The notes under the pieces are model-generated. The model was not told the DNA's origin, searched no databases, and saw only the letters and a list, made by a program, of their open reading frames with translations. From positions 1-37,001 of IMG/VR virus record IMGVR_UViG_3300020122_000027: DNA of 37,001 nt; one strand, given 5' to 3'. This document shows, piece by piece, positions 9,601 to 27,525 of the stretch. Position 1 is the stretch's first letter. Every line of letters starts with the position of its first letter. This stretch comes from a virus. Position numbers and translations under genes: made by a program.

Positions 9601-9927
9601 GATATTGGTGGAACCGGAACCGCACCTAAAATCAAAACAATGCAGGCAACTACTACTGCAACCAAAACTGCCAACTACACAATCACTACATCTGACTTCC
9701 AAATCTTTGCAAATCCATCCGGCGCTTTCAACCTAACTCTACCAGCTCCAGTTAATGGCATGGTCTACCATATCTGGGATATTTCTGGAACTATGCAAAC
9801 TAACAACGTCACATTAGTAAGAAACGGTTCTGAGAAAATCTCTGGTGTGGCAGCATCTCGTGTTCTCTCCACTAATTGGGGACATTGGATGGTGGTGTCG
9901 GACGGTGTTGATTGGTATCTCGGATAA
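6640..9927 (+). CDS. Long tail fibre with YPNP repeats and two IKD modules (1095 aa)
   Basis: Residues 1-65 repeat the anchor of the preceding fibre. GDL(G/S)GTYPNP(D/T)V-type motifs, common in phage fibres, occur near residues 78-88, 133-143, 153-164 and 349-360. A beta module (LTLP..NGR..IIKD...NL..DP.G....DG...DGTDWF) lies at about 272-336 and a second ends the protein at 1029-1095 (DGVDWYLG). The middle holds repeats around NADISSSAA, VSKLA.GTA.Q.LLN and TPTWT(T/S)M at about 413, 666 and 867. The C-terminal end of the fibre is presumably receptor-binding. There is no good ribosome-binding site before ATG, so translation is probably coupled to the upstream fibre. A homing endonuclease gene sits directly after it. 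Confidence 0.85.
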   Translation: MTFTPIFTYVMKARLNTPPYTKVTWRVYNTPDLTGAQSGYDPSTLIDIAIDYTINNNQAIENGAVPVFTSPGGPAGGDLGGTYPNPDVLKIHGFAVSSISPTNQYVLTWNSTTNQWEPSGATGGPPSGIAGGGLTGTYPNPTVASIAGLAAGGDLGGTYPNPDVLKVHGVSFPAINPATFTVATIIGANTAGWGFIFDHNIDVAAGISGSKISPNFGTQTLTSGPVFLGTTTGFNSLIGGVKFTTRSISSDDTLDAFTTDMIVYADTSGGAIILTLPTPSNGRVIIIKDKKQSFATHNLRVDPVGGIAKIDGVSGSLILSINNSEIILTSDGTDWFTQGSIGSTGTAGGDLSGTYPNPTVAKVDGVSYPASPSTNTVPVVTGANTVAYQQIANTQISNTAAIAYSKLNLTGDIVNADISSSAALDVSKLATGTAAQLLLNNSTPTPTWTTMSGDATISSSGSITNVGIRTKTLSSSLASIGSLQDGYILTWVNGDNAWEAKPQVANVTWANDLATSTNTSQNVVSITGASGFVPISSSGNIIKWAAATTAPGITQTDASSGAGASMAITAQKGNGSNNGGSLNLAGGAGGGSGGSLSGNVSINGNIIAIDGADYAMLRGNSTTGIKVGTASPLILFTNVTPYGFATGLVKGTVTGTDLQLSSSTLVNADISSSAAIAVSKLAAGTAGQILLNNSGPTPTWTTMGTDGTISSAGALNIVGLTGSSSTVSVHATNLTWDSSVANIFVKQASTSGAGNIFHVYAQDSTANSGGILKLKAGDGSGAFAGGDLTIESGVGGSSGDGGNIAIFAGGSSGSGANGYVLLGSGSNQLKLDATNGVTISNLGTGIVHSNSSGVLTSSLISVGSDITAGTAGQLLLNSSTPTPTWTSMSGDATIDSTGAVTLVALRGKTLDTALASVGVTQDGYALTWVNADNKWEAKPGGSGGSGVTTIGTFDSQTSAANGLVISGVNLYAQSATASNPGMIKLAGDIGGTGTAPKIKTMQATTTATKTANYTITTSDFQIFANPSGAFNLTLPAPVNGMVYHIWDISGTMQTNNVTLVRNGSEKISGVAASRVLSTNWGHWMVVSDGVDWYLG

Positions 9928-9952
9928 TTTTTGGAGAGGTATAGGCTGGGAT

Positions 9953-10555
9953 ATGATTACGATCTATTACATACAGAATAAAATTAATGGGAAAATGTAC
10001 ATTGGACAGACTACAATGTCATTAGATAAAAGATGGTATTTTCACAAAAGCGATTTATCACACTGTGTGATTATGAAAAATGCTATCAAAAAATATGGCG
10101 CCAATAATTTTGAAATCAATGCTTTTAAATATTGTGAAACACAAGAAGAAGCAGATCAAGAAGAGATTTATTGGATAGAACAAGTTAAACCACAGTACAA
10201 TATTAGAGCTGGTGGTTCGTGTGGCAAACATTCAGAACAAACTTGTCAGAAAATCTCTAAATCTCTTATCGGAAATAAACGAGCCGCCGGTATGAAACCT
10301 AATCAAACATCTTTCCAAATAGGCAGACCATCGCCACGAAAAGATCATAAAGGTGGCACATCTTGGAATAAAGGCAAGTCTATGTCTGAGGCTTCAAAAT
10401 TGAAATTATCTAAATCTAAAACTGGACAAACTAAATTTACATCAGAACAAATTAATGAGATGAAACAAATGCAACAGAATGGTTTATCTAATAGAGCAAT
10501 TGGAAGACATTTTAATTGTACTCATGCAACTATTGGAAGGTTAATCAATGGCTAA
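9953..10555 (+). CDS. GIY-YIG homing endonuclease 1 (200 aa)
   Basis: The GIY-YIG nuclease core is at residues 4-20 (IYYIQNKINGKMYIGQT), with Arg27 and the Glu70/Glu71 pair as likely catalytic residues. NUMOD3-like DNA-binding repeats follow (GKHSEQTCQKISKS, GKSMSEASKLKLSKS). A C-terminal helix-turn-helix is seen in LSNRAIGRHFNCTHATIGR. I chose ATG 9953 rather than in-frame 9845, because 9845 lies inside the fibre gene and adds unrelated residues; GGAGAG lies upstream at 9933. These are selfish, site-specific DNA cutters that spread into homologous loci. This one is wedged between a fibre and a Gly-rich adhesin gene, and its last 8 bases overlap the adhesin start. Confidence 0.9.
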   Translation: MITIYYIQNKINGKMYIGQTTMSLDKRWYFHKSDLSHCVIMKNAIKKYGANNFEINAFKYCETQEEADQEEIYWIEQVKPQYNIRAGGSCGKHSEQTCQKISKSLIGNKRAAGMKPNQTSFQIGRPSPRKDHKGGTSWNKGKSMSEASKLKLSKSKTGQTKFTSEQINEMKQMQQNGLSNRAIGRHFNCTHATIGRLING

Positions 10556-11853: not shown

Positions 11854-12215
11854 ATCTAAAAGAATCGATCGCTAAAGAGCTTGAGCAACGAGACGAACTG
11901 AAACATTTGGTCATGGTGCATGTTTCGGCTTGTTGCTCTATTGGGAAAGGCTTCGTCAAACGAGGCCGTCTCAATCAATATGTCTATGAGCAATTAGGTT
12001 TTCATGGACAACCTGGCAATCATTTCGGATGCTATATGAGGAAACTAATGGCTGAACAAGGCTTCAGAATTAGTTATAGTAGAGGACAACGAGTCTACTA
12101 TGGACTTAGATGGAGAGATGAATGCCAAAAGGTGTCTATAAACGAAAATACGTTCCAGGTGAAGCGGCCTACAAACGACTCTACACCAATAACCATTACC
12201 GAGAAAAAGGTCTAA
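11850..12215 (+). CDS. Unknown protein, possible winged-helix (121 aa)
   Basis: Not recognised. The core (residues about 15-90) alternates helices with a basic pattern: GRLNQYVYEQLG, then FGCYMRKLMAEQGFRISYSR, then YYGLRW. This could be a winged-helix DNA-binding fold. Its last 31 codons overlap the HNH gene (start 12122) in another frame and look unlike folded protein (NENTFQVKRPTNDSTPITIT). The original C-terminus may therefore have been shortened or replaced when the HNH gene moved in. The start is ATGA-coupled to the 43-aa gene. Confidence 0.6.
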   Translation: MNLKESIAKELEQRDELKHLVMVHVSACCSIGKGFVKRGRLNQYVYEQLGFHGQPGNHFGCYMRKLMAEQGFRISYSRGQRVYYGLRWRDECQKVSINENTFQVKRPTNDSTPITITEKKV

Positions 12216-12514
12216 CATTCAAAAAGTTTATGCAATTGAGTCAGATGGATTGTCATTATTGTGGCGCTAAGCCCAAGGCAGTTAATCCATATGGTTCCGA
12301 TTATGACATTGCATTGAAAAGTAGTAGGTTAACATATACTTACTGGCAGGATTGTTGGATAGTGGCTAATGGTGTGGATAAGATGACTCATCAGGATGAC
12401 TATAAAGACATCAAAAATTTAGTGCCTTGTTGTAAGATTTGTAATTGGATGAAGCAGAGATTAACACATGATGAATTCATTGCTCATTGTCAAAAAGTGG
12501 CGGCTCATCAATGA
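12122..12514 (+). CDS. HNH endonuclease (130 aa)
   Basis: The zinc-knuckle HNH layout is clear: Cys44-x2-Cys47 (CHYC), NGVDKM at 83-88, then NLVPCCKICNWMK at 99-111 with the second Cys pair (Cys104, Cys107) and Asn108, and a DEFIAHC helix. HNH enzymes nick or cut DNA. Free-standing ones in phages are usually homing endonucleases, and some act in packaging when next to terminase. This one is far from terL, so mobility is more likely. GGAG lies six bases before ATG. It overlaps the preceding ORF by 94 bases and the next by ATGA. Confidence 0.85.
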   Translation: MPKGVYKRKYVPGEAAYKRLYTNNHYREKGLTFKKFMQLSQMDCHYCGAKPKAVNPYGSDYDIALKSSRLTYTYWQDCWIVANGVDKMTHQDDYKDIKNLVPCCKICNWMKQRLTHDEFIAHCQKVAAHQ

Positions 12515-12926: not shown

Positions 12927-13096
12927 TTACCATTTTTCCTCACGCAACGACTCCATCCTCTCCAATATCTCCTGGATTCGTTGATGATTCTCCACATGCT
13001 TCTTCATCTTTTTTACAAGTCCACCATAAACCTTATTGGTTCCGTGAGTATAGTCAACGTTACCATTTAGGCTTTTCGTTACACTTGACTGGTTAA
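12893..13096 (+). CDS. Possible antisense ORF with very strong ribosome-binding site (67 aa)
   Basis: AAGGAGG (12878-12884) stands eight bases before ATG 12893, the best ribosome-binding site seen in the window. However, most of the ORF runs antisense to the 3' half of the HTH gene. The peptide (MSYEPIIRCLTITIF and a Ser/Pro/His-rich rest) does not look like a known fold. The site lies in the 3' arm of the CCTCC/GGAGG hairpin and the ATG in the next hairpin. If real, translation would be structure-controlled. The minus-strand gene is the surer call. Confidence 0.2.
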   Translation: MSYEPIIRCLTITIFPHATTPSSPISPGFVDDSPHASSSFLQVHHKPYWFREYSQRYHLGFSLHLTG

Positions 13097-13376
13097 CTCC
13101 CAGTTTATCGGCAATCTCGGTTTGAGTCATTCCGCTTGAGACCATCTTCATAATCTCAAACTGACGTTCGGTGCAGACTTTGGCAGCCAACTTCCAGAAC
13201 TCGGCCTTCAAATCATCCTTGCATTTTAAGTATTCTTCGCTGTATTCAAATGGGTTTAATAGATTAGAAATGGAGCGAGAGTTATCAAACGCCTCCATGA
13301 ACATATCTGGGACTAAAACCTCATTGATCGCCCATTGATATTTATCGCTCCTATTTGGCCTGTTGCTTATTGGCAT
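12927..13376 (-). CDS. HTH DNA-binding protein (149 aa)
   Basis: Residues about 68-103 carry a sigma-region-4/LuxR-like helix-turn-helix: CTERQFEIMKMVSSGMTQTE and then IADKLGVNQSSVTKSL. It continues into NGNVDY...NKVYGGLVKKMKK and a charged C-terminal helix. Similar HTH proteins occur in many environmental phages as regulators or, less likely, as small terminase subunits. I chose the ATG at 13376 because AAAGGAG stands eight bases upstream; the longer in-frame start at 13430 would lie inside the GIY-YIG gene. That ribosome-binding site is inside the 3' end of the endonuclease gene, and the two overlap by 26 bases. Confidence 0.75.
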   Translation of the reverse strand: MPISNRPNRSDKYQWAINEVLVPDMFMEAFDNSRSISNLLNPFEYSEEYLKCKDDLKAEFWKLAAKVCTERQFEIMKMVSSGMTQTEIADKLGVNQSSVTKSLNGNVDYTHGTNKVYGGLVKKMKKHVENHQRIQEILERMESLREEKW

Positions 13377-14031
13377 GTCGTAATCTCCTTTGTGCATTAT
13401 AACAGTCTTTACATTCTGGAGTATTAGCATCTTTATTTGGTCTATATTCTTTTCTAAATTCTGTGCGTAGTTTCACCGCTTCACATTTTGAACATTGTTT
13501 ATGTGTATCTGTGTTATTTGGATTTAGTTTAGCTAATCTAACACTCTCGGCCAATTTAGCCACATGTTCTTTGGAAAATTTTTTACCAAGATTTGTTCCT
13601 GGTTTCCCCATAGAAGCTTTAGAAATAGCCTGTTTATGATCTTCACTAAGAGGTTTACCTTTCCATAGACAACCAAATAAACGAAAATTCTCTGATCGTT
13701 TGGCATGGATTTTAGCAATAGTTTCCGGTGTTCGTATCATATGTTTGCCGCCTAAATCCACATTGTATCCATGTTTAGATACATGGCTTCCATATTGTTC
13801 TATTAAATCAATTTCTAATTGATTTGCATCGTCCAATGTTTTGCATGCCACTATAAATTCAAATGTGAAATTATTTCTACCGTATTTGGCAATGGCTTTG
13901 TGAATCGGTAAGCTGGCATTTTTAGAACTCCAACAATGTTGATACCAGCGCATTTTAGAACTAACAGAGGTTTGACCAATGTATATCTTACCGTTTACTA
14001 AATTAACTATTCTATAGATATGATGAATCAT
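13351..14031 (-). CDS. GIY-YIG homing endonuclease 2 (226 aa)
   Basis: The nuclease core is at residues 5-21 (IYRIVNLVNGKIYIGQT), with Arg28 as the likely catalytic Arg. LDDANQLEIDLIEQYG carries the catalytic Glu. NUMOD3-like repeats follow (GKPLSEDHKQAISKASMG, GKKFSKEHVAKLAESVR). The C-terminus adds a four-Cys zinc-finger-like segment (CSKC ... CKDC). I chose ATG 14031 because an upstream in-frame ATG at 14124 would read through a terminator hairpin. No ribosome-binding site is evident, and the gene starts 16 bases after that hairpin. It separates the HTH gene from the rest of the minus-strand unit. Confidence 0.9.
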   Translation of the reverse strand: MIHHIYRIVNLVNGKIYIGQTSVSSKMRWYQHCWSSKNASLPIHKAIAKYGRNNFTFEFIVACKTLDDANQLEIDLIEQYGSHVSKHGYNVDLGGKHMIRTPETIAKIHAKRSENFRLFGCLWKGKPLSEDHKQAISKASMGKPGTNLGKKFSKEHVAKLAESVRLAKLNPNNTDTHKQCSKCEAVKLRTEFRKEYRPNKDANTPECKDCYNAQRRLRHANKQQAK

Positions 14032-14040
14032 GTTATTCAA

Positions 14041-14081
14041 ATAGAAAACCCCACCAGCAAGATGGTTGTGCTGGTGGGGTT
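14041..14081 (-). terminator. Intrinsic terminator of the minus-strand unit
   Basis: A perfect 13-bp stem, AACCCCACCAGCA (14047-14059) with TGCTGGTGGGGTT (14069-14081), encloses a nine-base loop. Read on the minus strand, the stem is followed by TTTTCTATTTG, a U-rich tract. It would end transcription coming from 14121 and upstream. The GIY-YIG and HTH genes lie beyond it on the same strand. Confidence 0.85.
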
Positions 14082-14092
14082 GGGAGAAATGC

Positions 14093-14118
14093 CGTTGGGG
14101 AATAAAGGAAACCCAACG
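14093..14118. repeat. Inverted repeat beside the terminator
   Basis: CGTTGGG (14093-14099) and CCCAACG (14112-14118) form a 7-bp stem around 12 bases, just before the stop of the 54-aa gene's downstream terminator. It could be a second, weaker hairpin at the end of the minus-strand message. No U-tract follows on either strand. Confidence 0.45.
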
Positions 14119-14120
14119 CC

Positions 14121-14285
14121 TCACTCTATATCATCGGATTCTTCGTCTAACTCAATCTCCGCCACTAATTGACGATACAGAAAAGCCATTCTTTCCAGCT
14201 CATTATATTCTCCCATGCGAGTCTGCATGGTTTGGAATTGGCGCAAAGTTAGATGGCCGACCATTGGTTTGTATGGATTAATCAT
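14121..14285 (-). CDS. Unknown small acidic protein (54 aa)
   Basis: A short reading frame starting at ATG 14285 reads MINPYKPMVGHLTLRQFQTM, QTRMGEYNELERMAFLYRQL and an acidic end (ELDEESDDIE). Its start overlaps the preceding gene's stop (TAATG), and AAAGG lies about ten bases upstream. Mostly helical, no known family. It is the last gene before the intrinsic terminator, which supports it being real. Confidence 0.65.
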   Translation of the reverse strand: MINPYKPMVGHLTLRQFQTMQTRMGEYNELERMAFLYRQLVAEIELDEESDDIE

Positions 14286-14494
14286 TATAGAAATGCCTTT
14301 AGATTAAGAAAACGTTGCCACTCTACAGGTGTATATTCTACACCTTCAAATTCTATATATGTAATTTCATCAGCAGAAATATCTTTATGTCCCACGCTGA
14401 TACAATGTTGATAAGCGCACTCTGAACATATTTTGGCTTTAATAAAAACTATAGATTTGGGCTCAGATTCTGCGGCGCATAAACAACATTTCAT
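14285..14494 (-). CDS. Small putative zinc-binding protein (69 aa)
   Basis: Two Cys pairs, CCLC near the N-terminus (residues 3-6) and CSEC at about 23-26, fit a compact zinc ribbon. An acidic beta-rich half follows (DEITYIEFEGVEYTPVEW). No family is assigned. The stop overlaps the next start (TAATG). One of several tiny Cys-rich proteins in this unit; a role in binding nucleic acid or a host protein is only a guess. Confidence 0.65.
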   Translation of the reverse strand: MKCCLCAAESEPKSIVFIKAKICSECAYQHCISVGHKDISADEITYIEFEGVEYTPVEWQRFLNLKAFL

Positions 14495-14507
14495 TTATTA
14501 TCATTGC

Positions 14508-14735
14508 TCATGTTAAATCCAATGTCTTTCCATTTACATGCAGAGTTCTAACCGTCTTGGTCTCCAGCTCCGACTTATCCAAAGCAGCCAAGGCCACCTT
14601 CATAATGAATCTCATCAAATCGGAGGTATTCAAATCGCCTCCGAAATATTCATTGTTGACTTGCTGTAGTTGGGAGAACTCTTCTTGAGTCATCTTGCAA
14701 TTGGCTTGATGACTATGGTTGGTTTTCTTACGCAT
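14508..14735 (-). CDS. Small protein, possible ribbon-helix-helix (75 aa)
   Basis: The core, MTQEEFSQLQQVNNEYFGGD followed by LNTSDLMRFIMKVALAAL, resembles the helix-turn-helix part of ribbon-helix-helix (CopG/ParG-like) DNA-binding proteins. A strand (TVRTLHVNGKTLDLT) ends the protein. The start at ATG 14735 has GAGG five bases upstream and lies eight bases inside the preceding gene. A shorter start at the internal Met (MTQEE) is possible. Confidence 0.6.
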   Translation of the reverse strand: MRKKTNHSHQANCKMTQEEFSQLQQVNNEYFGGDLNTSDLMRFIMKVALAALDKSELETKTVRTLHVNGKTLDLT

Positions 14736-15075
14736 ATTTCCTCTTTGTAAATTTAGTGTTAAGTTCTTTTAATTCATCCGATGTCTTGGGTTGATGTTTG
14801 TTTATATAATCCAACCACTCCTGCCTATCGGATTCCTCCGCAAATTGCATCAACTTGGCCGCAATCATTGGGTTAATCTGCTCTGAAATATAGAGATTGA
14901 TAATTTGTTTCTCACCAGAAGTTAATGTTAGTTCCACTGTCTTGTCATCTATACGATTAACTACTCCGCCTTCAATAATGGATTTGGATGTATGAGGATA
15001 TTCGGAGAAGAGTTTTCTAATCTCGGACATTTGAGTTCGAAATGAATCAAAATTCTGTAGCATGAAATCTGTCAT
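14728..15075 (-). CDS. Unknown protein (115 aa)
   Basis: Not recognised. Helical N-terminal third (MLQNFDSFRTQMSEIRKLFS), a beta-rich middle (GGVVNRIDDKTVELTLTSGE) and a helical C-terminal part (NPMIAAKLMQFAEESDRQEW, DELKELNTKFTKRK). It is coupled at both ends: its start overlaps the previous stop (ATGA), and its 3' end contains the ribosome-binding site of the next gene. Confidence 0.65.
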   Translation of the reverse strand: MTDFMLQNFDSFRTQMSEIRKLFSEYPHTSKSIIEGGVVNRIDDKTVELTLTSGEKQIINLYISEQINPMIAAKLMQFAEESDRQEWLDYINKHQPKTSDELKELNTKFTKRKYA

Positions 15076-15320
15076 TCCAACTCCAATAGAAAATCAGCCG
15101 TAATAGATGGGCCCAAAGCTTTTCTTGCTTTAATGGCTAAATATCTTTGTGTGGCCTTTTCAATATAGTATTGTCTATTCTGGCGATAATGCTTCTTGCG
15201 ATGCTTGCTCATGCATGACTTGCAAACATATTGAAATCCATCATTGGCTGAGGTTTTCTTATTGAAATGTTGTTCCAATGGTGCTCTATATTCCACCAGA
15301 CATTTAGTGCAAGTTTTCAA
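15072..15320 (-). CDS. Small C4 zinc-finger protein with TTG start (82 aa)
   Basis: CTKC at residues 4-7 and CKSC at about 33-36 frame an F....T..DGFQYVC segment. This is the Cys4 layout found at the N-terminus of many phage HNH and endonuclease-VII-like proteins, but here it stands alone with a basic helix (SKHRKKHYRQNRQYYIEKAT). The start is TTG: bases 15318-15320 read CAA on the plus strand. TTGA overlaps the previous stop, and AGAAGG lies just upstream. The next Met falls after both Cys pairs, so the TTG start is needed to keep the finger. Confidence 0.7.
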   Translation of the reverse strand: MKTCTKCLVEYRAPLEQHFNKKTSANDGFQYVCKSCMSKHRKKHYRQNRQYYIEKATQRYLAIKARKALGPSITADFLLELE

Positions 15321-15628
15321 TTGACCTTCTTAATAAGTTCCATTAGACAATCATCGGACTCTAATTCTGCCTTGGTCTCGGAATTGGTTTTATATTCCCA
15401 AGCATCATCTGCCTCCACTGCCTTATCATATTCTGATTGCATGGTAATGGTGATTAATGATTGCACTTTTTGAGAACGTTTTAGTAATTGATTGGATAGA
15501 ATTTTTGCGTCGTGGTATTCTTGCTTGGCCAGGCGAAGCTTCTCCTCGGCCGGCTTAAGAACTTCCACCGATTGCTCTTTGAATAGATCTCGTAGAATGA
15601 GAAGTGCTGCTGTTATTTCTTTGCTCAT
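15317..15628 (-). CDS. Unknown helical protein (103 aa)
   Basis: Predicted largely helical and coiled-coil-like by eye (LKPAEEKLRLAKQEYHDAKI, then LSNQLLKRSQKVQSLI), with an acidic C-terminus (ETKAELESDDCLMELIKKVN). No family is recognised. The start overlaps the previous stop (ATGA), and the stop overlaps the TTG start of the zinc-finger gene. Confidence 0.65.
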   Translation of the reverse strand: MSKEITAALLILRDLFKEQSVEVLKPAEEKLRLAKQEYHDAKILSNQLLKRSQKVQSLITITMQSEYDKAVEADDAWEYKTNSETKAELESDDCLMELIKKVN

Positions 15629-15855
15629 TTTTTACCACACTGATGAGACTGATAGGTTTCCGAGCAGCCGCAATCTTCCTCTTTGGGCATTGCCTTTTTC
15701 AAACGAGACTTAACTCCGGTTTCTAAAATATCTCGAAGTAAATCTCCCATAGTTGGATAAGTGTTGTGTGTGCTGAGTGAAAGCAAGTTTTCAAGAGCCG
15801 CTTTTAATGACGGTTCAACTCGAACGAAAAGTGCTTCAGAATACTTAGTTGCCAT
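15625..15855 (-). CDS. Ribbon-helix-helix-like protein with Cys-rich tail (76 aa)
   Basis: An N-terminal strand and two helices, ALFVRVEPSLKAALENLLSL then TMGDLLRDILETGVKSRL, follow the ribbon-helix-helix pattern (strand V.V.P.L...L, helix, turn, helix). Such dimers bind operators. The tail has CGCSE...CGKK and may hold metal. TAGGAAATC before ATG 15855 gives a reasonable ribosome-binding site. It is a candidate regulator of this unit. Confidence 0.65.
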   Translation of the reverse strand: MATKYSEALFVRVEPSLKAALENLLSLSTHNTYPTMGDLLRDILETGVKSRLKKAMPKEEDCGCSETYQSHQCGKK

Positions 15856-15868
15856 GATTTCCTATATA

Positions 15869-16225
15869 TCAGGTGAAAATTAAAAGATTAATAAATCTTT
15901 GTTTGGAGACGAATCCAGGTAGATGATGTTCCTGCCTAATTTTTGGCTGTTCAATTAAAACACCATTTTGATATTGTGGTGGTGGTTGTTTTTGAACGGT
16001 TACAAATGAGGTAGTATTACTATCTGGTCGATAGGTCATGTGCCATTTAGTTCCTTTATGCGCAAACCTATGCTGGATGTTTTGGATTTTATATTTCGCG
16101 GAATCCAAATATAGAATTGCATGATTGAATTTACAATCATGACAAACTCCAGTATAAGAATGATTGCGCCTTTCAATATTAGACATGGTCAATTCTTTTT
16201 GGCATTGATAACAAATTGGTTTCAT
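15869..16225 (-). CDS. C4 zinc-ribbon protein (118 aa)
   Basis: CYQC at residues 5-8 and CHDC at about 28-31 frame an N-terminal zinc ribbon (MKPICYQCQKELTMSNIERR). A beta-rich, Pro/Gln-containing remainder follows (TKWHMTYRPDSNTTSFVTVQ). Not assigned to a family. It is coupled to the upstream 205-aa gene by an ATGA overlap. Confidence 0.65.
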   Translation of the reverse strand: MKPICYQCQKELTMSNIERRNHSYTGVCHDCKFNHAILYLDSAKYKIQNIQHRFAHKGTKWHMTYRPDSNTTSFVTVQKQPPPQYQNGVLIEQPKIRQEHHLPGFVSKQRFINLLIFT

Positions 16226-16839
16226 GATATTTTGTCTAAGTATAAATGTTGAATGGTAAGATTAATAGTTTGAAGTCTTATAATAAGTATTGAGTTTAAT
16301 TCATCATCATTTCTAAGTTGGGCCAGGTCTCCATAGCTATGACAATGTAAGTCTGAGAAAAGAGATTGCAAATTATTTGGTAATGGGTCTGTGCGATCTG
16401 GAATGCAGCTTGTGGTTAATTGTTCTTGTAGTCTGTATTTTTCTAATAGGTGGCGCAATCCTTTGGTGTTTAATTTTGCACCATATTTAGATAGGCACCA
16501 ATCTAAAAATGTTTTAGTTTGTTGCGCATTCTTATTACATTGCCTATAAATGTATCTCATACATTCTAACATTGGATGACTATTGGGTTCAGTTTTATGA
16601 ACTCCAAGAAAATCCGGATTGATCCGTTCCAAATCAATTGGCTCAAATCTCTCATTGGTATTGCTAATTAAATAACCAAGTAATTGGTAATGATTCCAAT
16701 CTGTGGCTGGCACAGATGTGTAATTTTGAATTTTATTGAGGCACTTCAACCAAGCTTTGTGATAGGTCATGATATCACATATATCACGATATGCATAGAA
16801 ATTAGCAGAAATTGGGCAGGCCGGCGCCCCACTTGCCAT
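16222..16839 (-). CDS. Unknown protein beside the origin-like element (205 aa)
   Basis: Not recognised. Mostly helical with several Cys, Tyr and Asn residues (HPMLECMRYIYRQCNKNAQQ, FLDWCLSKYGAKLNTKGLRH). The ATG at 16839 has only a weak AGAGAT upstream. An internal Met at residue 24 (MTYHKAWLKC) is an alternative start, and the first 23 residues look atypical (MASGAPACPISANF). It is the first gene after the inverted-repeat region, so an origin- or operator-binding role is worth testing; nothing in the sequence proves it. Confidence 0.6.
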   Translation of the reverse strand: MASGAPACPISANFYAYRDICDIMTYHKAWLKCLNKIQNYTSVPATDWNHYQLLGYLISNTNERFEPIDLERINPDFLGVHKTEPNSHPMLECMRYIYRQCNKNAQQTKTFLDWCLSKYGAKLNTKGLRHLLEKYRLQEQLTTSCIPDRTDPLPNNLQSLFSDLHCHSYGDLAQLRNDDELNSILIIRLQTINLTIQHLYLDKIS

Positions 16840-16869
16840 AATAACTATCTCTAAAGAGCCAGGAGAGCG

Positions 16870-16892
16870 CGAGAGGACTGCAAGTCCTCTCG
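16870..16892. repeat. Perfect hairpin CGAGAGGACT/AGTCCTCTCG
   Basis: Ten-bp arms (16870-16879 and 16883-16892) with a three-base loop. On the plus strand it is followed by TCTATTTATT, which is mildly U-rich; on the minus strand by CGCTCTCC. It could therefore stop antisense plus-strand transcription but not the genes on either side. It may also be part of the replication or leader structure. Confidence 0.8.
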
Positions 16893-16906
16893 TCTATTTA
16901 TTAAAG

Positions 16907-16933
16907 TAAACCTCGGAGAGAACCTCGGCTATA
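16907..16933 (+). repeat. Left arm of long inverted repeat with two CCTCGG sites
   Basis: It reads TAAACCTCGG, five spacer bases, ACCTCGGCTATA. The right arm (16991-17017) is its reverse complement at 23 of 27 positions. The four mismatches fall in the spacer between the two CCTCGG units, so the units themselves are kept. Confidence 0.85.
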
Positions 16934-16941
16934 CAGTAAAG

Positions 16942-16985
16942 TTAACTTATAAGTTAATTAGCTAATAAACTATCTATAGTACTAT
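16942..16985. repeat. AT-rich core with three perfect palindromes
   Basis: TTAACTTATAAGTTAA (16942-16957), ATTAGCTAAT (16957-16966) and ATAGTACTAT (16976-16985) lie between the two inverted-repeat arms. Almost no G or C is present, as expected for a DNA-unwinding element or a cluster of dimer-binding sites. Confidence 0.75.
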
Positions 16986-16990
16986 TCTTA

Positions 16991-17017
16991 TATAGCCGAG
17001 GTTTCTACCGAGGTTTA
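16991..17017 (-). repeat. Right arm of long inverted repeat
   Basis: It reads TATAGCCGAGGT, then the spacer and ACCGAGGTTTA, mirroring the left arm. It ends ten bases before the stop codon of the nuclease gene. Confidence 0.85.
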
Positions 17018-17027
17018 TCTGTATAAA

Positions 17028-17525
17028 TTAGTTTCGTTCTACTGGCCTGAAAGTTATCTGTGGAACATTGACTGGAACCCAGGTTTTGCACAAGCCCACC
17101 AGACTCTCATCTGGGCTGTGATGTAATTCGCGCAGCAGGTTCACCCATTCAATTTCTAACATTCGTTTGGCTTTGGGTAGGTACTTGCGCCCCATGGCAT
17201 TGACTCCAACACCATAAAATTGAATATGAGCCACGTCAGCATTTGGTTGATCTGCCTCCACCAGTTTACCATCCTTATCCAATGGGTAGTACACCAAACA
17301 GAAGACAGGAATCTCCTCTCGTGCTAATGAGCATAAAGCATCAAAAGCCGGTTCGTTAAGATCCACCTCTGTAATTCTGCCATATTTGGTCTCTATTAAG
17401 GCCAATGGTTTCCCAGTCTTGCTATCATATTCCATGAAATCCACATCCATTGCTGTTAGTTCAATTCCCCAAAGTCTATGTCTATTATTATACGCTAAGT
17501 TCCTCTTATTAAGTCGTTCGGCCAT
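17028..17525 (-). CDS. PD-(D/E)XK-type nuclease-like protein (165 aa)
   Basis: The N-terminal part has the restriction-endonuclease-like signature: RLWGIELTAMDVDFMEYD with Asp27/Asp29, a GKP turn, then LALIETKYG with Glu45-x-Lys47, plus an earlier acidic Glu22. This D...ExK arrangement occurs in VRR-NUC, Holliday-junction-resolvase-like and Cas4-like phage nucleases. No Cys cluster for an iron-sulphur site is present. The C-terminal half (FYGVGVNAMGRKYLPKAKRM) is not recognised. It probably processes DNA in replication, recombination or host-DNA attack. It is the first clear gene of the minus-strand unit. Confidence 0.75.
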   Translation of the reverse strand: MAERLNKRNLAYNNRHRLWGIELTAMDVDFMEYDSKTGKPLALIETKYGRITEVDLNEPAFDALCSLAREEIPVFCLVYYPLDKDGKLVEADQPNADVAHIQFYGVGVNAMGRKYLPKAKRMLEIEWVNLLRELHHSPDESLVGLCKTWVPVNVPQITFRPVERN

Positions 17526-17635
17526 CTGTCATTCCCATCTCTCCATTCAATGAGATGGTGTTTTAGTGCCACGTTTCTATCATTATTGCTATATAATCTT
17601 TGTCGAACTGTGCACCTTGGATTCAATTGGTGCAT
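17495..17635 (-). CDS. Possible small leading ORF of the minus-strand unit (46 aa)
   Basis: ATG 17635 opens MHQLNPRCTVRQRLYSNNDR, continues ALKHHLIEWRDGNDRW, and overlaps the nuclease start by 31 bases. There is no ribosome-binding site, and the start codon is inside a palindrome, so it is doubtful. It is listed because it fills the divergent gap and reads like protein. Confidence 0.3.
   Translation of the reverse strand: MHQLNPRCTVRQRLYSNNDRNVALKHHLIEWRDGNDRWPNDLIRGT
17592..17597 (+). promoter_or_regulatory. Possible -10 box for the plus-strand unit
   Basis: TATAAT stands in the divergent gap, 60 bases before ATG 17658. No good -35 hexamer is found at 16-18 bases, so this is a weak call that rests on the exact consensus and the position. 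Confidence 0.3.
17611..17634. promoter_or_regulatory. Operator-like palindrome in the divergent gap
   Basis: TGCACC (17611-17616) and GGTGCA (17629-17634), extended inside by TTG/CAA with a two-base bulge. Its position between the two divergent units, just downstream of the TATAAT, fits a regulator-binding site or a leader hairpin. Confidence 0.45.
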
Positions 17636-17657
17636 TAAAACAGGATACGAATAACAG

Positions 17658-17921
17658 ATGGCAAAGCCAAAAAAGAAGATCGATCTAGAAAAAATCCCAT
17701 CAGTCCTTGAAAAGATAGCCGCATTGGTGGACCGAGAAGTGGACCTTCTCGGAGCTAAAACTGCTCTAACCTTAGAAGAAGGTAAGAGTTTAGTTGCGTT
17801 CGCTTCCATGCTTTCCACCATGTACAAAGACTATCGTGCAGAGATTGTCGCCATTGAAAAGGATTTGAAGTCGAAATCCAAAGAAGAGATTCAGGCCATG
17901 ATCAAGTCGGAGTCTAACTAA
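17658..17921 (+). CDS. Small helical protein at head of packaging genes (87 aa)
   Basis: Basic start (MAKPKKKIDLEKI), then two long helices (VLEKIAALVDREVDLLGAKT, LVAFASMLSTMYKDYRAEIV) and a Lys/Glu-rich end. It heads the unit containing terL, where small terminase subunits usually sit, and its size and helicity would allow that role. No HTH is obvious, so the call stays open. AGGA lies 11 bases upstream of ATG. Its stop overlaps the GIY-YIG start (TAATG). Confidence 0.65.
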   Translation: MAKPKKKIDLEKIPSVLEKIAALVDREVDLLGAKTALTLEEGKSLVAFASMLSTMYKDYRAEIVAIEKDLKSKSKEEIQAMIKSESN

Positions 17922-18382
17922 TGCTCTGTACCATTTATGTCATCAAAAATTCGATTAACGATAAAGTTTATGTAGGCCAAACTTGGCAAACATTAGAGCG
18001 CAGAATATCAAGTGGTTATAAGCCTTGTATTCATTTATCTCGCGCCATGAATAAATATGGTGCTGATAAATTTCATCATGAAGTATTGACATTCAGTGCC
18101 ACACAAGAAACGGCAGATCAATTAGAGCAGCATTTCATTGCTAAATTTGATAGTATTAAGAATGGATACAATATTAGAAGTGGTGTTTCAAGAGGCAAGC
18201 ATTCTGAAGAGAGTAAAAAGAAAATATCAGAAACAAGAAAATTACGCAAGATACCATCACCAACATTTACTGGGCACAATCATTCTGATATTAGTAAAAA
18301 GAAAACTTCTAATTCAATGAAGGAATCTTGTAAGAATAGAATTAGAAATTCTAAAGGACATTTCATAAAGGAGATCGTATGA
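17921..18382 (+). CDS. GIY-YIG homing endonuclease 3 (153 aa)
   Basis: The core is at residues 5-21 (IYVIKNSINDKVYVGQT), with Arg27/Arg28 and the ETADQLEQHFI region for the catalytic Glu. It continues into NIRSGVSRGKHSEESKKKIS, a NUMOD3-like segment, and a basic tail. It is coupled on both sides (TAATG in, ATGA out), so it sits neatly inside the packaging unit without breaking flanking frames. It is shorter than the other two GIY-YIG proteins and lacks an HTH or zinc-finger end. Confidence 0.9.
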   Translation: MLCTIYVIKNSINDKVYVGQTWQTLERRISSGYKPCIHLSRAMNKYGADKFHHEVLTFSATQETADQLEQHFIAKFDSIKNGYNIRSGVSRGKHSEESKKKISETRKLRKIPSPTFTGHNHSDISKKKTSNSMKESCKNRIRNSKGHFIKEIV

Positions 18383-19075: not shown

Positions 19076-19302
19076 ATTATTGTAGGTTGTTACAACACAG
19101 AAAAAGCCGAGCTGAACGAGTAGCCGGCATCAAAGTTATGTATATAGTCAGCGAGGCCACTATAGAACACAATATCAATATTGAAGGCGTTCTTGCTAAA
19201 TGGATTATTGAACAACCAGAATTAAAAGAAACTCTAATGAAGAGCGCCGAAGTATCTGGTCTTAACATAGATAAAATAAAACTCTACTTACTATTCTCAT
19301 GA
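19072..19302 (+). CDS. Unknown small protein upstream of terL (76 aa)
   Basis: Start ATG 19072 (MNYCRLLQHRKSRAERVAGI) was chosen over the in-frame 19030 because of the ATGA overlap. The rest is helical (GVLAKWIIEQPELKETLMKS, AEVSGLNIDKIKLYLL). It is a possible small terminase candidate alongside the 87-aa gene, as it directly precedes terL and overlaps it by ATGA. No family is assigned. Confidence 0.6.
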   Translation: MNYCRLLQHRKSRAERVAGIKVMYIVSEATIEHNINIEGVLAKWIIEQPELKETLMKSAEVSGLNIDKIKLYLLFS

Positions 19303-20768
19303 ACGAAAAATTAATCCAAAAGATAGCGCAGCAAGAACTAAAGAAGCGACAGGATATTAAGCCTGTCGATGTTCTACAGGAATGCCTGCCATATCAATTG
19401 GATTTCATCAGAGATCCACACAAACGCAAAGCTGTCTGTGGAACTCGTAGAGCTGCCAAGTCATTTATGTTCGCTCTCTACCTCATCAACCAAGCTATCA
19501 CAGTTCCAAAATCCAAATGTATCTACATGGGATTGACCAATGAGTCTTGTAAACAAATCATGTGGTCCGACATTCTTGAAATCATCTTCGATAAATACAA
19601 TATCAAAGCAGAATGCTCTTCCAAATATGAGATTGAATTCGATAATGGTTCCGTTATCTATCTACGAGGATTAGACGCCACTCCGCACCAGATGAATAGA
19701 CTTAGAGGACAGAAGTTTGATATTGGTGTTATTGATGAAGTGCAGGATTTTACGCAGGACATTGAACAGATCATCGATGGAGTTCTAAAGATGTCATTGG
19801 CTCAGACTGGAGCTACGCTCTGTTTGGGAGGCACGCCTGGAAACAAACAAGGTGAGCATTATTGGTGGAGAGTTAATAAACCAAATTCCGAACTGCAACA
19901 ATGGAAGCTTCATCATTTCGATTGGAAGAATAATACCTCCATTGAGCCAAAGAATGGCAAGAGAGTTTGCGATGCCATTCAGGAAGATATCGATAGAGAT
20001 TTAGCCAGGAATCCACTAATCATTCATACGCCTAAATTCCGACAGGAAGTAATGGGTGAATGGGTTATTGATACCGATGCCAGAGTCTATCGATCCACAG
20101 CCGATAACTATATTCAGGACGGCTATCTACAGTCTTGGTTCTTCCATAACTGCACCTATAATCTATCATTGGATCTTGGTTATATCGATGCTACCGCCTA
20201 TGTAGTAACTGCTTACAACCAGAAGTATGATAATAACCTATACGTTATTGAATCAACCAAGCATGCTGGTCAGACCATTACCGATGTCGCCAATATGATC
20301 AAAGTTTATAGGCAAAAGTATACCTTTCAGTCCATCGTCATCGATGCTGCCAACCGTCAGGCAGTGGAGGAAATGCGTAAGATTCATGCGCTGCCACTAC
20401 AGGCCGCTGAGAAGCTGGGCAAGGCAGCTCACATCGCTTTGATGAACTCCGATTTCATCACCAAAAACATTCTCATTCTCAAGAATCAAAACGCCCAACT
20501 TATCAATGAACTTAATACACTTATCTGGGATACCAATGCACTTCTAAGAGGTGAGCATAAGGAAGATTCCAGGAAAGAGAATCACTTGACAGATGCTCTT
20601 CTTTATGGACATCACCAATCACGCCATTACTGGTTCAAAGTTACTACCCCACCGTTACCATTTGAAGAACAGATTGTGCAAGAGATTGAACGACAATTCT
20701 TACCAAAACAAACCATCAAGCAAGTAAAGCAGCCATGGTGGAAGGATGAAGACGATGCCTCTTTTTGA
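19299..20768 (+). CDS. terL: Terminase large subunit (489 aa)
   Basis: This is the DNA-packaging motor and nuclease. The ATPase has a Walker A-like GTRRAAKS at 48-55, Walker B IGVIDE at 142-147 and a coupling motif LGGTPG at 176-181. The C-terminal RNase-H-like nuclease shows Asp292 (SLDLGYIDA), Asp349 (VIDAANR) and Asp432 (HLTDALLYG). Length is normal for the family. It binds the portal and pumps DNA into the prohead. The ends of this contig suggest circular permutation and hence headful cutting. Codons end in C more often than in the fibre genes. Confidence 0.95.
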   Translation: MNEKLIQKIAQQELKKRQDIKPVDVLQECLPYQLDFIRDPHKRKAVCGTRRAAKSFMFALYLINQAITVPKSKCIYMGLTNESCKQIMWSDILEIIFDKYNIKAECSSKYEIEFDNGSVIYLRGLDATPHQMNRLRGQKFDIGVIDEVQDFTQDIEQIIDGVLKMSLAQTGATLCLGGTPGNKQGEHYWWRVNKPNSELQQWKLHHFDWKNNTSIEPKNGKRVCDAIQEDIDRDLARNPLIIHTPKFRQEVMGEWVIDTDARVYRSTADNYIQDGYLQSWFFHNCTYNLSLDLGYIDATAYVVTAYNQKYDNNLYVIESTKHAGQTITDVANMIKVYRQKYTFQSIVIDAANRQAVEEMRKIHALPLQAAEKLGKAAHIALMNSDFITKNILILKNQNAQLINELNTLIWDTNALLRGEHKEDSRKENHLTDALLYGHHQSRHYWFKVTTPPLPFEEQIVQEIERQFLPKQTIKQVKQPWWKDEDDASF

Positions 20769-20959: not shown

Positions 20960-21235
20960 ATGGAATTAACACTCGAACTAATACAAGCTCTTTCCAAACT
21001 TGTGGTGGATCATAAACTGGATCGCCTTAAATGCGGAGAATTAGAAATTACCAAAACCAAGCATGAAGCCCCCAAATTGGATGTTCAATCCAATAATAAT
21101 CCGACATCTATTGCAGAGTTGGATGATATTCTTTTCCATTCAACCAGCGCTCCACCTTTGTCATTGGAGCAATTGGAGGCACTTACAATCACTCCAATTA
21201 AAAAATCTAAAACGAAGGTAAAGAATAATGGCTAA
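20960..21235 (+). CDS. Unknown small protein between terL and portal (91 aa)
   Basis: Start ATG 20960 comes two bases after the previous stop. A helix plus short strand (MELTLELIQALSKLVVDHKL, DRLKCGELEITKTKHE) leads to a polar linker and a second helix (SLEQLEALTITPIKK) with a basic end. Not recognised. Overlaps the portal start by 8 bases. Confidence 0.6.
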   Translation: MELTLELIQALSKLVVDHKLDRLKCGELEITKTKHEAPKLDVQSNNNPTSIAELDDILFHSTSAPPLSLEQLEALTITPIKKSKTKVKNNG

Positions 21236-23243
21236 TAAAAAGCAGGCTGATAAGCTAAAGGTTAAGAAGGAAGTCAGAGCATCCGGCAAGGTAACTAAGG
21301 TTAAGCAGGATAGGCCAGTCACTTCTTCTGGTGAGTATTTAGCCAGCGCTGATAACCGCAAGATTATCAAGGCTTATACCTCGAAAAATGATGTTACACG
21401 TTGGTGGTTAGAAGATGCCAAAGACCTTCATAAATCAGTGGATTCCACTGTTACAGCCATTGAAAATGCTCAGACTCATCGCAGACTTTTGTATCTTCGT
21501 TATGGTCGCCTCTATGGTAACTATGAAGCCTTGGGTTATCCAGCTATCGGTCGAGGAGCTTACTCTCAAGAATCCTCCAACAAAGTAGTATTGAATATCA
21601 TCCAATCTGTTATCGATGCCGTAGCTGCCAAGGTCGCTAAGGACCAGCCGAAGGTTTCATTTGTAACAACTGGCGCTGATGACTATTTCCTCAAGCTCCG
21701 TGCCACCAATCTCACAAAGTATGTCACCGGTCTATTCAAAGAGGCTGAGGTCTATGAGAACTCCGAGATGGTCTTTAGAGATGCCGAAGTTCTTGGCACT
21801 GGTTACATGTTGGTCAAAGTAGAAGACGGCAAGATTAAGACGGAATGGGTTTTCTCTGATGAAATTCGTGTAGATGAGCTGGATGGCTGGAAACAAAAGC
21901 CTCGCTCCATGCATCGTATCAACCTAATTCCAAGAGATATGCTACTTCTCAAATACCCAGAACATCAAGAACATATCCTGGGCGCACAGACTTCCATGTC
22001 AGGTAGAACTGGTTATCAATCCACTATGGATATGATTCGTGTCACAGAGTCCTGGCATCTTCCAATGGATAGCAAGTCTGGAGATGGTGTTCACTGTATC
22101 ACTATCCAGAACTGCACTCTTGAATCTAATGAATATAAGAAGGACTACTTCCCAATCGTTTGCTTCCGTTGGATGGCTAAGCCTCTTGGTTTCTTCGGTC
22201 GCTCCATTACTGAAGAGATTCTAACTATTCAGGTGGAAATTAACAAGATTCTCAAGACCATTCAACAGTCTCAGGAACTTGCTGCTGTGCCAGTTATCTT
22301 CGTGGAAAACTCATCTCAAGTATCGGAAGATGTTTTGCTTTCTAACACCATTGCCAGAATGATTCCATACTCAGGCACTCCTCCACAGTTTGCTTCTCCA
22401 ACCGCTTTGTCAGGAGAAGTCTACTCTCACCTTAACTCACTAATTCAATGGGCTTTCCAGATTGTTGGTCTCAGCCAAACCTCTGCTTCTGGTATGAAGC
22501 CAGCCGGCGTAGATTCAGCAGTCGCTATCAGAGAAGTGTCGGATATTGAAACCGGCAGATTCGCCATGGTGGCCAATCGCTGGGAGAAGTTCTTCGTGGA
22601 AGTCGCCAGAATCATGGTTGATATTTCCAAGGATCTATACTCAGAAAATCCAGATCTTTCCATTACCTTCTCGGAAAAGAAAATCCTAAAGGAAATCAAG
22701 TGGAAGGATGTAGATTTGAATGACAATCCATTTGATATTCAAACCTTCCCAACCTCTCAGCTACCAGATACTCCAGCCGGCCGTATCCAAACAATTACTG
22801 AATACATCCAAAACCAATGGATCTCTAAGGAACGTGGTATGGAACTATTGAATCTTGATCCAGATTTGGAACAAGAAGTTAATGTCCAGACTTCATCTCT
22901 TAGACTTACTGAGAAGTGGCTATCTGAGATGGTGGAGGATGGAGTAACTCATCAACCAGATCCATTAATGAATCTTGGCTTGGCACAACAGACCGCACAA
23001 GGCGTGTATACTATGTTGGTGCATGATGGTTGTCCAGATGATAGGCTTGAGCTTGTTCGTCAATTCATTATGAACTGCATTGCTCTACAGGCGCCACCTC
23101 CAGAACAAGCGCCACCTCAACCTCCTCCTGGCCCAGTTGATCAAAATGGTCAGCCAATTCAGCCAGTTCCAGGTTCTCAGCAACCTCCGCCAGCTCCAGG
23201 TCCAATTGGTCCTCAGCCAGCTCCCATGATGCAAACACAATAA
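21228..23243 (+). CDS. Portal protein (671 aa)
   Basis: The 12-subunit ring at the packaging vertex. The pattern NIIQSVIDAVAAKVAKDQPK followed by FRDAEVLGTGYMLVKVEDG and EWVFSDEIRVDE is typical of podovirus portals. Later comes a helical, charged part (NPDLSITFSEKKILKEIKWK) and a C-terminal extension rich in Pro and Gln from about residue 617. Length fits the larger P22/T7-type portals. Basic N-terminus (KKQADKLKVKKEV). Position after terL and before scaffold supports the call. Confidence 0.85.
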   Translation: MANKKQADKLKVKKEVRASGKVTKVKQDRPVTSSGEYLASADNRKIIKAYTSKNDVTRWWLEDAKDLHKSVDSTVTAIENAQTHRRLLYLRYGRLYGNYEALGYPAIGRGAYSQESSNKVVLNIIQSVIDAVAAKVAKDQPKVSFVTTGADDYFLKLRATNLTKYVTGLFKEAEVYENSEMVFRDAEVLGTGYMLVKVEDGKIKTEWVFSDEIRVDELDGWKQKPRSMHRINLIPRDMLLLKYPEHQEHILGAQTSMSGRTGYQSTMDMIRVTESWHLPMDSKSGDGVHCITIQNCTLESNEYKKDYFPIVCFRWMAKPLGFFGRSITEEILTIQVEINKILKTIQQSQELAAVPVIFVENSSQVSEDVLLSNTIARMIPYSGTPPQFASPTALSGEVYSHLNSLIQWAFQIVGLSQTSASGMKPAGVDSAVAIREVSDIETGRFAMVANRWEKFFVEVARIMVDISKDLYSENPDLSITFSEKKILKEIKWKDVDLNDNPFDIQTFPTSQLPDTPAGRIQTITEYIQNQWISKERGMELLNLDPDLEQEVNVQTSSLRLTEKWLSEMVEDGVTHQPDPLMNLGLAQQTAQGVYTMLVHDGCPDDRLELVRQFIMNCIALQAPPPEQAPPQPPPGPVDQNGQPIQPVPGSQQPPPAPGPIGPQPAPMMQTQ

Positions 23244-24432: not shown

Positions 24433-25704
24433 ATGGCAACTGGCAATACACCAACCACAATTGATGCACTCTTAAAAGAATATTACGATGATGGTGCACT
24501 CGTAAACGAAACCTACATTGACAACCCACTATGGGCTCGTATGTCAAAGCAGGAATCCATCGGCAACGTAACTGGTAGACACTTCGTCCACCCAGTAGTC
24601 TTCGCTTCGTCCCAAGGCCGTAGCAGAAGCTTCACCCAGGCTCAGAACCGTGGTCAAACCACCTCCGAGCAATCTGTTGACTTCTTGGTCCCAAGAGTTA
24701 CCAACTACCAGTTGGCAACCGTCCAGACTGAAGCCGTCCTCCAGACCAAAGGTGACAGAGGCGCATTCGTCGATATCCTAACTCTTATCACTGACAACGC
24801 TGTCAGAAACCTTGGATTGGCTCAAGCCCATTCCATGTATGGCACTGGTTCCGAGTCAATCGGACAGATTGCCGCTGGCGGTATCACTACCTCCGTTATT
24901 ACTCTTGCCAAGACCGACCAGTCTTTGAACTTCGAAGTTGGTATGGAACTTGACCTTGCTGCTGCCGAAGTAACTGGTGGTGTTGAGGCTTATGGTTCTA
25001 ATGGTCACGGTTTGTATGTTATCAAGGTAGATCGTACTGCTAACACTATCACTGTCGGAACTGCCGCTGGTGTTGCTGTTAACGTAACTGACTCTGCTGA
25101 TGGTATCCCAACGGCTGCACCTGGCGACTTCATCTTCGTCCGTGGTGACCGTAACTTGGGTATGCAAGGTGTCCAAGCTTGGATTCCTTATGGTGGTCCT
25201 GCTGCTGGTACCTTCCTCGGTGTTGACCGTTCTGCTGACCCAGTCAGACTTGCAGGTAACTATCTCGATGCTTCCCAGCTCGCAATTGAGGATGCCTTCA
25301 TTCAGGCAGCCAACAACGTTGCAAAACAAGGTGGAAAGCTAACTCACTTCTTCATTCCATACAACAAGTACTCTCAGTTGCTCAAGAGCCAAAGTGCCAA
25401 GGTAACTATCGTTGAGGAAGTCAACCCAGATATCTCTTTCGACGGTCTCCAGGTTCTAACTGCTAAAGGCCCAGTCCTTGTAATGCCAGATAGAAACTGC
25501 CCATCCGACAAGATGTTTGGTCTTGACATCAACACTTGGGCTTATACTCACGTAGGTGATCCAGTCCAGATGTTTAATTTGGATGGTAATACCTGGTTGC
25601 GTCAGGCTTCTTCCGATGGTTTGGAGATTAGATTCTTCTCCATGGGTAACTTAGTTTGCCGTGTTCCAGCTCACAACATCACCATGCTTTGCAGCCAAGC
25701 CTAA
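24433..25704 (+). CDS. Major capsid protein (423 aa)
   Basis: Length, position after the scaffold and composition fit an HK97-fold capsid protein, although I cannot see a unique motif. It opens with TTIDALLKEYYDDGALVNET, contains FVHPVVFASSQGRSRSFTQA and TNYQLATVQTEAVLQTKGDR, and ends with SMGNLVCRVPAHNITMLCSQ. Codon choice shifts strongly to C-ending, optimised codons (AAC, TTC, GTC), unlike the fibre genes, as expected for the most highly translated gene. It shell-forms around the scaffold. Confidence 0.85.
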   Translation: MATGNTPTTIDALLKEYYDDGALVNETYIDNPLWARMSKQESIGNVTGRHFVHPVVFASSQGRSRSFTQAQNRGQTTSEQSVDFLVPRVTNYQLATVQTEAVLQTKGDRGAFVDILTLITDNAVRNLGLAQAHSMYGTGSESIGQIAAGGITTSVITLAKTDQSLNFEVGMELDLAAAEVTGGVEAYGSNGHGLYVIKVDRTANTITVGTAAGVAVNVTDSADGIPTAAPGDFIFVRGDRNLGMQGVQAWIPYGGPAAGTFLGVDRSADPVRLAGNYLDASQLAIEDAFIQAANNVAKQGGKLTHFFIPYNKYSQLLKSQSAKVTIVEEVNPDISFDGLQVLTAKGPVLVMPDRNCPSDKMFGLDINTWAYTHVGDPVQMFNLDGNTWLRQASSDGLEIRFFSMGNLVCRVPAHNITMLCSQA

Positions 25705-27181: not shown

Positions 27182-27525
27182 TGTTCAAGAAATTCAAGAA
27201 GCTGTTTGTGGCTCTGGCAGATCTTGATGAGCCGAAGAATCTACTCAGAGTTATCAATGCTTTGCAGTCCAATATCGAGGAATCATTGGCGCCTTTGATT
27301 AATAAAACTCAAAATGATTCTTCAATTCTAACCAATATCCAACTCACCACAGGCCAGAATAATGTTATAGATCATACATTAGGAAGAGACTTAGTTGGTT
27401 GGAAATTGGTTAGAGTCCGAGGTGTGGCTGACATCTATGATACCCAGGATAGTAATCCATCCAAGAACCTAACTCTCTGGCTTACGACTTCGGCCAATGT
27501 CTCAGTGGATTTAGAAGTTTTCTAA
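27181..27525 (+). CDS. Small putative tail protein (114 aa)
   Basis: The TAATG overlap fixes the start at 27181. A basic helix (MFKKFKKLFVALADLDEPKN) and a second helix lead to a beta domain (NNVIDHTLGRDLVGWKLVRV, NLTLWLTTSANVSVDLEVF). The domain pattern (N.V.H.LGR...GW.......A...D......NLTL.L..S..V...L.V) is frequent in short proteins next to phage tail genes. Likely a tail or fibre-attachment protein. Confidence 0.65.
   Translation: MFKKFKKLFVALADLDEPKNLLRVINALQSNIEESLAPLINKTQNDSSILTNIQLTTGQNNVIDHTLGRDLVGWKLVRVRGVADIYDTQDSNPSKNLTLWLTTSANVSVDLEVF

Follow-up and report, generated by a model that had tools for sequence, protein, structure and literature searches.

How does a tailed phage that encodes no recognizable replication enzymes hand its DNA over to the host? 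A tailed phage without any replication enzyme must rely on the host replisome to copy its DNA, and for uncultured phages the way this comes about is still largely obscure. We examined this question at one non-coding locus in IMG/VR virus record IMGVR_UViG_3300020122_000027, all 37,001 bases of which make up the window analyzed here. The record carries a direct terminal repeat of 127 bases and is therefore most likely a complete phage genome that is circular or circularly permuted. Between two of its early genes lies an element of 133 bases, 16896-17028, in which a large inverted repeat encloses an AT-rich core. Because a phage that has no replication enzymes must possess a site that brings in those of the host, an origin is plausible here, and the element is the best candidate found in this genome for such an entry site. 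We tentatively favor an initiator-dependent replication origin over an operator region or an RNA hairpin, with a confidence that falls somewhat short of even.

An earlier note on this DNA, made from the letters alone, had described a 27-bp inverted repeat with 23 of 27 positions matched and two CCTCGG units in each arm. Both descriptions were borne out: the repeat lies at 16907-16933 and 16991-17017, with CCTCGG at 16911 and 16923 and CCGAGG at 16996 and 17008. The arms extend further, to 38 bp (16896-16933 versus 16991-17028, 30 of 38 matched, 57 bp between them), and the repeated unit is better given as the 8-mer AACCTCGG, which is present in four copies within 107 bp and absent from the rest of the 37 kb. 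Each arm holds two copies 12 bp apart, and the inner copies are separated by 73 bp, or about 7 helical turns. The parts of the element are as follows.

16896-16933, plus strand: left arm, with two direct AACCTCGG sites
16909-16916, plus strand: site 1, AACCTCGG
16921-16928, plus strand: site 2, AACCTCGG, inner, followed by CTATA
16934-16990: AT-rich core enclosed by the two arms (16937-16990 is 81% AT)
16942-16957: perfect 16-bp palindrome TTAACTTATAAGTTAA, the sole perfect palindrome of at least 14 bp in the genome
16957-16966: palindrome ATTAGCTAAT
16976-16985: palindrome ATAGTACTAT
16991-17028, minus strand: right arm, the mirror image of the left, its end touching the stop codon of a gene for a 165-amino-acid (aa) protein
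16996-17003, minus strand: site 3, AACCTCGG, inner
17008-17015, minus strand: site 4, AACCTCGG, outer

The element is real and non-random. Its inverted-repeat score is 22, whereas the next-best inverted repeat of the genome scores 15, and when the whole genome was shuffled 25 times with dinucleotides preserved, the highest score per shuffle was 12-17. That second repeat, at 27325-27416 (17 of 19 matched), lies within a coding gene and adjoins a CCGAGG. Among 200 shuffled genomes there was none in which any 8-mer occurred four times within 110 bp (0/200), and the genome has just one further 8-mer cluster, a CCACCACC run of low complexity within a tail gene rich in Gly codons.

The DNA between the arms is the weakest duplex in the genome, with the least stable 40-bp window (16954-16993) and the least stable 60-bp window (16935-16994) both lying in the core and ranking first by nearest-neighbor energy. 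All three palindromes that had been claimed for the core are present, and the core is the densest palindrome cluster of the genome, with four palindromes of 10 bp or longer in a span of 47 bp. Among the hallmarks of iteron-type origins are clustered copies of one short site and an adjoining AT-rich, easily melted element, and these two are found here. The literature on phage origins yielded general comparators only. In lambda and the iteron plasmids, origins opened by an initiator consist of repeated initiator sites beside an A+T-rich unwinding element, the O iterons of lambda being inverted repeats of 19 bp that adjoin 40 bp of A+T-rich DNA (PMC5043065). Archaeal origins have an AT-rich DNA unwinding element (DUE) with conserved repeats on its flanks (PMC5333045). 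Like the lambda origin, the present element lies in the early region, near a putative initiator gene, and combines repeated sites with adjoining DNA that melts easily; unlike it, the sites are 8 bp long and flank the core in pairs instead of being confined to one side, the core contains palindromes, and the phage has no recognizable O- or P-like protein. With the iteron plasmids P1, F, RK2 and pSC101 the element shares a short site that is directly repeated next to a DUE, with a candidate rep gene following at once downstream. It differs from them in that its two direct pairs face each other across the core, in a 12-bp spacing that corresponds to 1.14 turns, and in the lack of a Rep homologue. 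The likeness to archaeal ORB origins, which are bound by Orc1/Cdc6, is one of layout (repeats that flank an AT-rich DUE), and, unlike in those systems, there is no Orc1/Cdc6 gene in the phage and no Walker A protein in its set of open reading frames (ORFs).

The position of the element within the early region is also unusual. The minus strand from 12927 to 17525 is a packed operon of small genes, several of which share 4-bp overlaps between 15072 and 16839, and because these overlapping genes follow it, the 188-bp gap that holds the element, from the stop codon of the 165-aa ORF to the start of a 205-aa ORF, is anomalous. The features of the operon and the gap that bear on what follows are these.

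12927-13430, minus strand: gene for a helix-turn-helix (HTH) protein, by profile search
15625-15855, minus strand: gene for a ribbon-helix-helix (RHH)-like protein, by sequence appearance only
16222-16839, minus strand: 205-aa orphan ORF downstream of the element, the candidate partner protein
16870-16892, minus strand: perfect 10-bp hairpin (loop of 3 nt), with the start of the 205-aa ORF about 30 nt downstream
17028-17525, minus strand: 165-aa orphan ORF upstream of the element
17084-17092, plus strand: weak DnaA-box-like TTTTGCACA, 56 bp outside the right arm

A position in a large non-coding gap ahead of a series of overlapping genes would also suit a multi-operator region, in which a phage repressor or activator on the AACCTCGG pairs, perhaps with a second dimer on the palindromes, would form a loop controlling a core promoter of the 205-aa operon. 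Palindromes are typical of dimer operators, and the phage encodes both the HTH protein and the RHH-like protein. However, a scan for sigma-70-like promoters, which would miss promoters of another host type, showed none on the minus strand, either within the core or at a distance that would suit the 205-aa gene, and its matches overall were no more numerous than in shuffles. The lack of a standout promoter in the core therefore weakens the operator explanation somewhat. Furthermore, the divergent promoter region 17526-17657, an expected target of a regulator, contains no copy of AACCTCGG. On balance we regard an operator region as rather unlikely. As a separate observation, the divergent promoter region (17504-17679) is bordered by a weak inverted repeat (25/36), and both divergent genes there begin in the same CAGATGGC context.

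The earlier statement that this genome has no recognizable replisome genes held up in motif and profile searches. Walker A, PolA and PolB motifs are all absent from the listed ORF set, as is any credible HUH initiator, and searches of the phage proteins gave no profile match to replication enzymes. The HUH or Rep_trans initiator of a rolling-circle origin was likewise not found by motif or profile. Terminase and portal searches recovered about 15 distinct related viral contigs with structural genes, and most of the long plus-strand genes outside the tail-fiber region (for example those of 648, 671, 423, 239, 369, 998 and 398 aa) have homologues in these structural-gene contigs. Replication functions, if there are any, should therefore sit in the minus operon. 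A distant relative (L019) that shares the terminase, portal and tail genes carries replication-type genes on the minus strand at the same place, namely a helicase (Pfam) and a PD-(D/E)XK nuclease (supported by PHROGs but falling narrowly short of the Pfam cut-off), together with an ATPase and an exonuclease/polymerase-like ORF, both recognized by eye.

We propose that the element is a cis-acting origin for a phage without recognizable replication enzymes. From what is observed, namely the sites, their spacing and uniqueness, the instability of the core, the interruption of the operon by a gap and the absence of recognizable replication genes, we infer binding, melting, host recruitment and the identity of the protein as follows. 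A site-specific protein, most likely phage-encoded and with the 205-aa ORF as first candidate, would bind the four AACCTCGG sites. With two sites per side facing each other, the assembled complex would bend or untwist the core, and the opened strands would then receive the host helicase and polymerase. A more specific version, which we consider doubtful, is a self-contained origin of new design, in which a palindromic melting core is flanked by two inverted pairs of 8-bp sites and an initiator of a new family (the 205-aa protein or a neighbor) captures the host replisome, in a lineage without early-region replication enzymes. A candidate origin this short and sharply defined, with its own site and a neighboring orphan gene, would make the replisome hand-over directly testable.

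Several results weigh against an origin. The GC skew, which had been suggested as a check, does not switch near 17000; the detrended cumulative skew has its extremes at 12.9 kb (peak) and 28.7 kb (minimum), and these are largely gene-driven. The suggestion that this is an origin- or operator-like element thus stands on anatomy (unique clustered sites, the weakest DNA, a non-coding gap and no replication-enzyme signature) and fails on the skew switch. There is no integration host factor (IHF) consensus within the element, and only one weak DnaA-box-like match nearby, of a kind found 4 times in the genome and so possibly there by chance. No initiator is identified, the 205-aa protein being neutral (pI 7.1) and without an informative family match or a trustworthy model. 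The gapped pairing of the linkers described below suits an RNA stem too. Finally, the element occurs in none of the relatives found: in contigs long enough to cover the region the early genes are different ones, and the remaining contigs stop short of it.

The minus-operon genes and the AACCTCGG sites are likewise in none of the approximately 15 related viral contigs, and no host or prophage was found by terminase alignment in genome contigs. A search with the four-site pattern gave a single match (L024), which we rejected as a GC-rich, CCTCGG-rich repeat adjoining structural-type genes. A relaxed three-site pattern gave 7 viral and at least 100 genome matches, and all those screened have a GC-rich interior (at least 54%) and look like chance. 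The element is at present a one-genome orphan that belongs to no family tested for. Two relatives showed features of their own. The terminase gene of L008 (1386-3908) is split by a long in-frame insertion resembling an intein, with query residues 1-52 and 49-462 matching on either side of it, and the contig of L004 opens (1-300) with a tandem repeat of 90 bp and a hairpin gcctcgcttcgcaagcgaaggcgaggc, both in non-coding sequence that precedes its early genes.

The arms themselves allow a further explanation. The earlier note had placed the four mismatches only between the CCTCGG units, which is true of the ungapped 27-bp arms and untrue of the full 38-bp arms, whose eight mismatches fall in two clusters at columns 7-11 and 22-25, the two linkers (clustering p ~0.004). 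This two-cluster pattern still looks like that of sites parted by free linkers. The argument from mismatch positions that the units are constrained is weakened, since the inner linker also pairs once gaps are allowed: in a folding program AGAGAA and TAGAAA pair with a 1-nt bulge on each side, and the sequence is therefore also readable as one long bulged stem, either in RNA or as a cruciform. As part of the early minus-strand transcript, this stem and the 10-bp hairpin might act as an RNase III site, attenuator or stabilizer between the 165-aa and 205-aa genes. The predicted RNA fold is far beyond shuffles (z = -5.8, no shuffle as good), the stem begins at the stop codon of the 165-aa gene, and the adjoining hairpin is also in the leader. 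However, the DNA strand folds equally well (z = -6.5), and these energies do not separate the two readings because any long inverted repeat gives them. There is no clear excess of G-U pairs among the arm mismatches. Rfam gave no match at the gathering score, and weak long-hairpin microRNA models far below it show only that a long hairpin is possible. In the T7 early region, long imperfect hairpins between early genes are RNase III sites. The present element resembles these in being a long imperfect hairpin between early genes, and differs from them in its greater length, its large AU-rich loop and the exact direct repeats in each arm. A stem needs neither the exact direct repeat in each arm, nor the 12-bp spacing, nor the absence of the unit elsewhere, whereas a binding array does need the direct repeat. 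We conclude that the element is most likely a protein-bound DNA element, and an RNA function for it appears unlikely.

The perfect 10-bp hairpin that had been reported beside the repeat is indeed present at 16870-16892. It is terminator-like on the plus strand only, with no plus-strand gene just upstream, and on the transcribed strand no T tract lies 3' of it, which speaks against both an intrinsic terminator for the minus operon and the RNA explanation above. A second strong hairpin of the early operon, a perfect 13-bp stem AACCCCACCAGCA/TGCTGGTGGGGTT at 14047-14081, lies upstream of a GIY-YIG gene. Because this hairpin also precedes a gene of the same operon, we treat the one at 16870-16892 as a separate RNA element, and both are probably RNA elements apart from the inverted array.

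At 133 bp with terminal inverted arms, the element also has the size of a miniature inverted-repeat transposable element (MITE), and it could be a relic of mobility or recombination of this kind, or a resolution or packaging site. Against this, it is present as a single copy in the genome, no target-site duplication lies outside the arms (the flanks TCTCGTCT and TAGTTTCG share no abutting duplication), and there are no copies in viral contigs and chance matches only among the genome matches listed. A partition site belongs with these possibilities. In P1 parS, paired protein boxes flank a central segment, and the paired boxes on both sides of an AT-rich center here recall that layout. A P1-type parS is accompanied by a ParA ATPase and ParB in the same replicon, whereas this phage has no ParA/ParB-like pair, its ORF set includes no ParA-like Walker A protein, and the element lacks an IHF site. 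A mobile or partition element is accordingly the least probable of the explanations considered, and we think it quite unlikely.

With regard to the flanking ORFs, neither the 205-aa nor the 165-aa protein has a recognizable relative in Pfam, NCBIfam, PADLOC, PDB, phages, plasmids or viral contigs. Among PHROGs, the 205-aa protein comes closest to phrog_6154, a weak match (E = 0.0018) to a family without known function. AlphaFold run without an alignment gave a mean predicted local distance difference test score (pLDDT) of 37-39 for the two proteins, and hence no usable model. In the 165-aa protein, inspection by eye suggests a D-x(n)-ExK-like motif (MDVDFMEYD..ALIETK), which no profile confirmed, and judged on this motif the protein is possibly a nuclease. 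Its matches in Pelagibacter and Streptomyces were rejected as relatives, being weak (E at least 0.3).

The structural genes on the plus strand include tail protein genes as well as the following.

19299-20768, plus strand: terminase gene
21228-23243, plus strand: portal protein gene
24433-25704, plus strand: SU10-like capsid protein gene, below the Pfam cut-off

Public phage records hold only distant relatives of the terminase (24-33% identity) and essentially none of the portal and capsid proteins, and no near match was found for the early region. Archaeal HTH models are among the weak matches of the 167-aa HTH protein, and an archaeal host was considered on that account as one possibility. 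Three GIY-YIG-type homing-endonuclease genes are present in this 37-kb phage, two backed by profiles (9845-10555 and 13351-14124) and one by sequence appearance (17921-18382). Two small ORFs match different parts of an endonuclease VII profile (phrog_1035), the one at 15072-15320 (82 aa) a zinc-binding-like part and the one at 12122-12514 (130 aa) an HNH-like part.
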